Positions 45,960-47,609 of a stretch of 64,000 nt of DNA are shown piece after piece. The DNA is from Acidimicrobiales bacterium (GTDB lineage: Bacteria; Actinomycetota; Acidimicrobiia; Acidimicrobiales; Aldehydirespiratoraceae). Made by a program: the position numbers and the translations under genes. The notes under the pieces were generated by a model. The model was not told where the DNA came from and did not search any database. It saw only the letters and a program-made list of their open reading frames with translations. The stretch is taken from contig JAKMFW010000015.1 in the NCBI GenBank assembly GCA_022425325.1, forward strand, positions 79,937-143,936, written 5' to 3'. Positions within the stretch are counted from its first letter, which is position 1. Every line of letters begins with the position of its first letter.

Positions 45960-46636
45960 GCGCCGCCTGCCCGGGCGACGTAGCCCATGCCCCGCACGGT
46001 GTGCAGCAGGCGGGTCGCGCCGTTGGCCTCGAGCTTCTTGCGGAGGTAGCCGACGTACACATCGAGGGTCTTCGAATCGGTCTCGAGCGCTCCGTCCCAG
46101 ACGGTGTCGTAGAGCTGATCGCGGCTCAGGACGACACCGGCGTTGCACACCAGCACTTCGAGTAGGTCGAACTCGGTGCGAGAGAGATCGAGTGCCCGAC
46201 CCTGCCGGGTCACCGACCGGCCGGCCAGGTCGATCCGCAGGTCGTCGAGGACGAGAAGATCGACGTCGTCGGGGGCGGCGCTGCGCAGGCGGGCTCGAAG
46301 CCGGGCAAGGAGTTCGTCGAGCGCGAACGGCTTCACGACATAGTCGTCGGCTCCGGCGTCGAGACCGGCGACTCGGTCGTGCACCTCGTGGCGGGCCGTC
46401 AGCATCAGCACCGGTGTGTCGTCGCCCTGCGCTCGCAGCCGACGACACACGCTCAGACCGTCGGCGTTCGGCATCGACACGTCGAGCAGAAGCAAGTCGG
46501 CGGGGCGGTCGGCATGGAGTTGGAGCGCGCTCGCCCCGTCGCCGGCGGTCGCGACCTCGTAGCCCTCGAGGGTGAGGGCCCGCTCGAGCGACGAGCGGAC
46601 TCGACGGTCGTCTTCGGCGATGAGGATCCGGTGCAC
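45956..46636 (-). CDS. OmpR/PhoB-type response regulator (MprA-like)
   Basis: ILIAEDDRRVRSSLERAL, LLLDVSMPNADGLSVC, VLMLTARHEVHDRVAGLDAGADDYVVKPFALDELLARLRA, LDVYVGYLRKKLE...LLHTVRGMGY. Confidence 0.93.
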   Translation of the reverse strand: MHRILIAEDDRRVRSSLERALTLEGYEVATAGDGASALQLHADRPADLLLLDVSMPNADGLSVCRRLRAQGDDTPVLMLTARHEVHDRVAGLDAGADDYVVKPFALDELLARLRARLRSAAPDDVDLLVLDDLRIDLAGRSVTRQGRALDLSRTEFDLLEVLVCNAGVVLSRDQLYDTVWDGALETDSKTLDVYVGYLRKKLEANGATRLLHTVRGMGYVARAGGA

Positions 46637-46656
46637 GCTCGTACCTTTCCACGACT

Positions 46657-46742
46657 CGGTGAGAATTCCGTGAGATGGGCCGCCATGGGGGCCGGGCGGG
46701 CAGATCCGTCGGGGTGGTCATCGTCCGGTGAACACACCGTGA
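46657..46742. promoter_or_regulatory. Two copies of CGGTGA-N5-CCGTGA (46657-46673 and 46726-46742)
   Basis: CGGTGAgaattCCGTGA and CGGTGAacacaCCGTGA; GTGA half-sites 11 bp apart; in the divergent RR/surE intergenic region. Confidence 0.7.
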
Positions 46743-46756
46743 ACGAGTGCTCGTTC
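46741..46756. promoter_or_regulatory. Inverted repeat GAACGAG-tg-CTCGTTC upstream of surE
   Basis: Perfect 7-bp arms; lies 15 bp upstream of the TAGGGT -10 (46772-46777). Confidence 0.5.
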
Positions 46757-46784
46757 GTCCGCCCTTGCGCCTAGGGTCGCTCGC

Positions 46785-47609
46785 GTGCGAATTCTGGTGA
46801 CCAACGACGACGGCATCGACTCGATCGGCCTCCATGTGCTGGCCCGGGCGATGAAGCCCTTCGGTGAGGTGGTGATCGCCGCCCCCAACACCGAGTACTC
46901 CGGCTACGGCGCTGCGCTGGGCACGCTCCACAACATGAAGCCCGATGTCCGCAAGGAGTACGTCGAGGGAATCGACGAGGCGTGGTCGATCAGTGCGCCG
47001 CCGGCGCTGTGCGCCATGTTCGGGCGCCTCGGTGTGTTCGGCGCCATCGATCTCGTCGTCTCCGGCATCAACCCGGGAGCCAATGTCGGCCGCGCCGTCT
47101 ACCACTCGGGCACCGTCGGGGCCTGCCTCACTGCGCGCAACGGCGGGATCTCCGGCGTCGCCGTCTCACAGTCGGTCGATGCATTCGGCGTCGAAGGGCA
47201 GGGCTGGGAAGAAGCGCTCGGCAGTCAGGTCTGGCAAGGGGCCGGCGATGTCGCCGCCATCGCCGTCGGCGCCCTCATCCAGGACATGCCCGATGAGCCG
47301 ATCGTGCTCAACATCAATGTGCCCAACCGTCCCGCCGAGGACATGGCGGGCTGGAAGCGCACCGATGTCGGTCACGCGCCGCCTCGGGGTCTGGCCACGG
47401 CGAAACTCGAACCGAAGCCCGGCGCTCACGACACGTACCACGTCGAGATGGAGTGGGGCGATGCCATCCAGATCCCCGAATCCGACGATGGCGGGGCGGT
47501 GATGGCCGGCTACGCCTCACTCACCTGGTTGGGCCGTCTCGAAGGCCTCACGCCTCATCACCCGACCATGCTCGCCACCGAACGGGCGATGGACGAGTTC
47601 TACCGGTGA
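46785..47609 (+). CDS. surE: 5'/3'-nucleotidase SurE
   Basis: VRILVTNDDGIDSIGLHVLARAM, VVSGINPGANVGRAVYHSGTVGA. Confidence 0.94.
   Translation: MRILVTNDDGIDSIGLHVLARAMKPFGEVVIAAPNTEYSGYGAALGTLHNMKPDVRKEYVEGIDEAWSISAPPALCAMFGRLGVFGAIDLVVSGINPGANVGRAVYHSGTVGACLTARNGGISGVAVSQSVDAFGVEGQGWEEALGSQVWQGAGDVAAIAVGALIQDMPDEPIVLNINVPNRPAEDMAGWKRTDVGHAPPRGLATAKLEPKPGAHDTYHVEMEWGDAIQIPESDDGGAVMAGYASLTWLGRLEGLTPHHPTMLATERAMDEFYR

Follow-up and report, generated by a model that had tools for sequence, protein, structure and literature searches.

A two-component system and surE share a divergent promoter region

We analysed a stretch of 64,000 nucleotides (64 kb; hereafter the window) from an Acidimicrobiales genome assembly of 2.6 Mb (G000), in which a 148-nt intergenic region (positions 46637–46784) separates a response regulator (RR) gene on the minus strand from the divergent surE gene on the plus strand (Table 1). 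Both genes begin with GTG, at 46636 (minus strand) for the RR and at 46785 (plus strand) for surE. The RR has a receiver domain (PF00072, 111.7 bits) and a winged-helix Trans_reg_C domain (PF00486, 92.1 bits), both exceeding the Pfam cut-off. It scored 208.9 bits against the PhoB equivalog of NCBIfam (TIGR02154), below the cut-off of 296.2, and it receives no NCBIfam name, with scores below the cut-off for all of the equivalogs listed. The best match in the PDB was PrrA (207.9 bits), while M. tuberculosis PhoP reached 178 bits and MprA was not among the matches. Among named relatives, the one closest to the RR (L061; 71% identity) comes from a metagenome assembly of Acidimicrobiales. The surE product contains the SurE domain at 139.9 bits versus a Pfam cut-off of 22.1, and lies below the NCBIfam equivalog cut-offs. 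Scans of the 148-nt region for sigma-70 promoters and for terminators found none.

Table 1 Genes and predicted regulatory features around the divergent region. RR: response regulator, HK: histidine kinase.
Feature	Position	Strand	Remarks
Histidine kinase gene, 459 aa	44574..45953	-	HAMP, HisKA and HATPase domains; adjoins the RR gene, close behind
RR gene, OmpR/PhoB family, 226 aa	45956..46636	-	PF00072 and PF00486; PrrA is the best solved relative
Extended -10 of the RR-HK operon (TGG AAAGGT), predicted	46643..46648	-	9 nt after site 1, 6 nt before GTG
Site 1, RR box TCTCACGGAATTCTCACC, two 7-bp units with a 4-bp spacer; predicted RR autoregulatory operator	46658..46675	-	Top RR-type score in the window
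Site 2, PHO box GTTCACGGTGTGTTCACC; predicted operator of a RegX3/PhoP-like regulator	46727..46744	-	Top PHO score in the window; at surE only in five genomes
Inverted repeat GAACGAG-TG-CTCGTTC	46741..46756	.	Overlaps site 2 at its end and also the surE -35 region (predicted)
-10 of surE (TAGGGT), predicted; 7 nt before GTG	46772..46777	+	Kept in nearly all relatives
surE, predicted 5'-nucleotidase, 274 aa	46785..47609	+	PF01975

Two direct-repeat sites in the intergenic region

A first-pass annotation of this DNA had described two 17-mers between the genes as copies of a CGGTGA-N5-CCGTGA operator. Both are present, as CGGTGAGAATTCCGTGA at 46657–46673 and CGGTGAACACACCGTGA at 46726–46742, and each has its GTGA half-sites at an 11-bp distance, as had been described; on recount they have 13 of 17 positions in common (76%) rather than 12. 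CGGTGA-N5-CCGTGA has no other exact match in the window. This motif had been put forward as the mark of a new regulon. We found five exact matches genome-wide, and because the other three lie inside ORFs, CGGTGA-N5-CCGTGA as written defines no regulon. A degenerate form, GTGARM-N4-SGTGARM, was tried and rejected; its three exact matches in the genome were both sites and one inside ORFs. On another contig of the same assembly (L288 1978–2017, G000:C15), four tandem 11-bp units (CTCACGAAACG CTCACGTTCCG CTCGCGAGACG CTCACC) stand just upstream of a probable lipoprotein start, and this repeat (RR matrix score of 10.8, see below) is a candidate OmpR-family operator.

Weight matrices place the sites in two operator classes

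Two weight matrices were built, an RR matrix from the boxes upstream of orthologous RRs and a PHO matrix from pstS boxes, both without the window's own sub-clade; each represents ~20 promoters, from relatives that are not independent of one another. Site 1 scored 24.7 on the RR matrix and 2.5 on the PHO matrix, and site 2 scored 7.0 and 23.7, respectively, each site being the best match of its own class within the window. In 1000 shuffled versions of the region (dinucleotide shuffling), scores rose to at most 15.0 on the RR matrix and 16.6 on the PHO matrix. As these maxima fall short of the observed scores, chance does not account for the two sites, which are real and far above the level of chance matches. 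The pstS box of the same genome scored −1.8 on the RR matrix and 18.8 on the PHO matrix, and site 2 is the strongest PHO-type match among the own-genome loci read (matrix scores within this genome refer to fetched loci, and the rest of it was searched by pattern). All RR boxes of the family scored above 20 on the RR matrix. The individual units follow the same division: GTTCAC occupies both units in none of the RR boxes of the set and in most pstS boxes, and TCTCAC occupies both units in no pstS box of the set.

The two classes are not absolutely separate, since genus g5 carries a mixed box (TCTAACC-N4-GTTCACC) that is intermediate between them and calls for the most caution, and whose RR score is partly circular as it was included in the RR training set. 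Mixed boxes of the TCTAACC-TGAT-GTTCACC type were found near surE in this genus (L050, L051, L052, L054 and L060); in one of these loci (L060) the box is kept at surE and an RR ortholog was not found in the locus. The earlier reading of sites 1 and 2 as duplicated operators of one regulator is not supported by the matrices, and the assignment of the sites to two separate classes makes it most likely that they are operators of two different regulators, not one duplicated operator.

The RR box accompanies the RR gene across relatives

We found surE in 50 of the 61 genomes searched, and in most of the loci read an RR with 64 to 100% identity lies divergently beside it. The element conserved upstream of the RR orthologs, in most genera examined, is TCTCACC-N4-TCTCACC on the RR strand, not CGGTGA-N5-CCGTGA. 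Its conservation upholds the view that the sites are 11-bp direct repeats of the OmpR/PhoB type, and gives good support to the proposal that the two-component system is autoregulated, as the site 1 type recurs upstream of the RR orthologs. Exact GTGAGA-N5-GTGAGA repeats numbered 28 in 41 family genomes versus 1 for the reversed control; 16 of these 28 copies adjoin an RR ortholog, and the window's own genome holds one. At this stringency, such a distribution speaks for a site devoted to autoregulation and not for a large regulon. Upstream of RR relatives outside the order, RR matrix scores were weak (13–14 at most), and within the sub-clade the conservation of site 1 alone was not significant (p = 0.086). 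Taking these comparisons of relatives together, the RR very probably regulates its own expression through site 1.

Control of surE by the RR had been proposed alongside autoregulation, and as a conserved feature it is not supported: the box follows the RR when surE has moved and is missing at most surE genes with no RR beside them. Where another gene splits the RR from surE (L039, L040, L042 and L049), the RR box stays beside the RR, and five surE genes whose locus has no RR (L044, L046, L048, L053 and L055) lack the RR box and retain the TAGGGT element. The splitting gene in these lineages, which lies between the RR box and surE, encodes a HlyIII-like membrane protein (PF03006 was assigned by Pfam on the related locus L214).

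These observations bear on whether the adjacent RR could bind both sites, one for each divergent promoter, site 2 being a copy of site 1 that is weaker or has drifted. Such a reading would account for the 11-bp geometry and the common positions of the two sites, lineages with a shorter gap have a single box 65–75 nt from surE that could serve both promoters, and duplication of the RR promoter does occur (L219). However, the RR matrix score of site 2 is far from the level of every RR box in the family, its two units are both GTTCAC, as in most pstS boxes and in no RR box of the set, and when the genes are apart the RR box does not go with surE. We consider binding of both sites by the RR unlikely. 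The duplication itself lies in a related genome (L219, G002:C6:13306, 1500–1600), where a copy of the RR promoter, comprising the box, the −10 and about 12 first codons, precedes a different ORF that reads as a secreted protein or lipoprotein and has no Pfam match; this is an apparent case of promoter duplication and capture.

Promoter layout

The gap between the box and the extended −10 is exactly 9 nt in 16 of 24 RR promoters, from several genera. In those 16 the extended −10 has the form TGn-nAnnnT (CGn in one), and in most the start codon follows ~6 nt on. The RR box thus spans about −39 to −22, i.e. the −35 position. Promoters activated by PhoB-type regulators carry the box in place of a −35 element. 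Because the box sits a fixed 9 nt before the extended −10, this layout suggests that the RR promoter is leaderless, of the PhoB type, and self-activated. Genus g9 differs: a better −10 lies at 22–23 nt from the box, and the RR is preceded by a visible ribosome-binding site. At surE, almost all genomes have TAGGGT or a near variant at a distance of 6–7 nt upstream of the GTG, and the RR and surE transcripts are both predicted to be leaderless.

Site 2 resembles the pstS boxes of the order

Read on the other strand, the second site had been likened to the PHO boxes of Streptomyces. That reading of the strand is correct and the likeness is borne out, as the site matches the pstS boxes of its own clade. 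In the family and order, most pstS genes have GTTCAC-N5-GTTCAC upstream, and a search of the window's own genome for the GTTCAC repeat found one copy upstream of a pstS gene. The pst operon of this genome is arranged as pstS-pstS-pstC-pstA-pstB, with pstC, pstA and pstB exceeding the NCBIfam cut-offs. Nearby on the same contig (C48) is a second RR, whose best solved relative is RegX3 (256.4 bits, with MtrA at 197.3) and which scores below the cut-off of every NCBIfam equivalog listed. RegX3 is the phosphate regulator of mycobacteria. The DNA-reading helices of the window RR (SKTLDVYVGYLRKK) and of this RegX3-like RR (TKTLDVHIKRLRAK) differ. Beside the RegX3-like RR, no PhoR or PhoU was recognised; a 459-aa frame between it and pstB (L286 3511–4890, G000:C48) stands where PhoR or PhoU might be expected, has no Pfam or NCBIfam match, and may be no gene. 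From its sequence class, we regard site 2 as probably a PHO box. A GTTCAC-N5-GTTCAC repeat also lies between divergent glutamine synthetase genes of the GlnII and GlnA types (L287 2523–2540, G000:C66), where a link between phosphate and nitrogen is possible.

Of the regions upstream of surE that were scanned, those of five genomes alone (G000, G001, G002, G004 and G006) hold a strong PHO box. Within this sub-clade, 2 positions out of 34 are variable across site 2 and its flank, compared with 19 out of 49 across the intervening spacer (p = 0.0007). Site 2 occupies −58 to −41 relative to the predicted surE start, in reverse orientation, and points to the RR operon, whose predicted −10 is 78 nt away. 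This orientation is unusual for an activating PHO box, and since the site points towards the RR, activation of surE is not certain; it is possible that site 2 acts by repression, or on the RR operon. Phosphate-linked control of surE, probably by the RegX3-like regulator, is plausible as a lineage-specific hypothesis. The phosphate link suggested for surE by the first-pass annotation can thus be kept as plausible through the pstS-type PHO box, and its reach narrows to five related genomes.

The inverted repeat that overlaps site 2 (Table 1) could instead be the true conserved element, recognised by a different regulator (a TetR-type repressor, for example), with the PHO-like match secondary. 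It is a perfect 7+7 inverted repeat overlapping the predicted surE −35, and positions 46743–46758 are invariant in the five genomes. Against this, the PHO score of site 2 comes from an independent pstS matrix and was unreached in the 1000 shuffles, and the near-matches to the palindrome that were read (L290–L293) look coding and have no promoter setting, so that no regulon is visible; we judge this reading improbable. The palindrome was rejected as a regulon marker on account of the same near-matches, which resemble coding sequence. A match by chance, or one without function that short divergence has preserved, would fit the confinement of site 2 to five closely related genomes. We hold this very improbable, since the spacer varies much more than site 2 and its flank, and since site 2 ranks as the strongest PHO-type match among the own-genome loci read.

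Proposed mechanism

Our preferred explanation as a whole, self-activation of the RR through site 1 and tuning of surE through site 2 as a PHO box gained in one lineage, has in our estimate a probability of about 0.68. The 148-nt region would then hold two operators that differ in specificity. At site 1, the phosphorylated RR would bind TCTCACC-N4-TCTCACC as a tandem dimer, replace the −35 element just upstream of the extended −10, and switch on its own leaderless RR-HK operon, with activation preferred over repression on the basis of the promoter spacing. Site 2, presumably gained in the ancestor of the five closely related genomes, would be read by the RegX3/PhoP-like regulator linked to the pst operon on contig C48, and would most likely tune surE to a presumed phosphate signal. 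A further and tentative idea, to which we give rather less than even odds, is that surE has been rewired in this uncultured Acidimicrobiales lineage, a PHO box having been placed within a self-activating promoter region such that phosphate signals are combined with those of an uncharacterised PrrA-like system, which would act through its own TCTCACC-type operator.

Comparison with known systems

All components of the locus are of known kinds, and the account given here is a modest refinement of the earlier idea. Its value is twofold for a poorly studied group whose members are known largely as metagenome assemblies: it provides an operator sequence for a two-component system that occurs family-wide and is uncharacterised, and a consensus for the PHO box of the group. 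It also illustrates that operators alike to the eye may belong to different regulators, and the confinement of site 2 to one sub-clade makes it a modest natural example of rewiring at a promoter.

In Streptomyces, the PHO box of PhoP is GTTCACC-N4-GTTCACC (PMC4832192, PMC4415409). Site 2 is like this actinobacterial box in its direct repeat, GTTCAC-N5-GTTCAC(C), a form also found upstream of pstS in the order. Unlike the usual PHO box, it stands at surE, is reversed with respect to surE, occurs in one sub-clade, and has a binder that is predicted. In Microlunatus, PolR gave a footprint on GTTCACnnnnnGTTCaC, and PolR is described as DevR-like (PMC6754071), so a regulator of another family can read a PHO-type sequence.

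The window RR resembles the MprAB and PrrAB systems of Actinobacteria in being nearest to PrrA among solved structures and in self-activation, which is inferred here and has been reported as positive self-activation for MprAB (PMC12113857, PMC2258413). It is unlike MprAB in its operator, as the C. glutamicum MprA motif is TKTTAAGAAM (PMC12113857) whereas site 1 consists of TCTCACC repeats, and in its conserved neighbour, which here is surE. M. tuberculosis PhoP binds as a tandem dimer, on 7-bp motifs in tandem that are strictly 4 bp apart (PMC4832192). Site 1 is spaced likewise, with 7-bp units and a 4-bp spacer, but the unit is TCACAGC in M. tuberculosis and TCTCACC in site 1.
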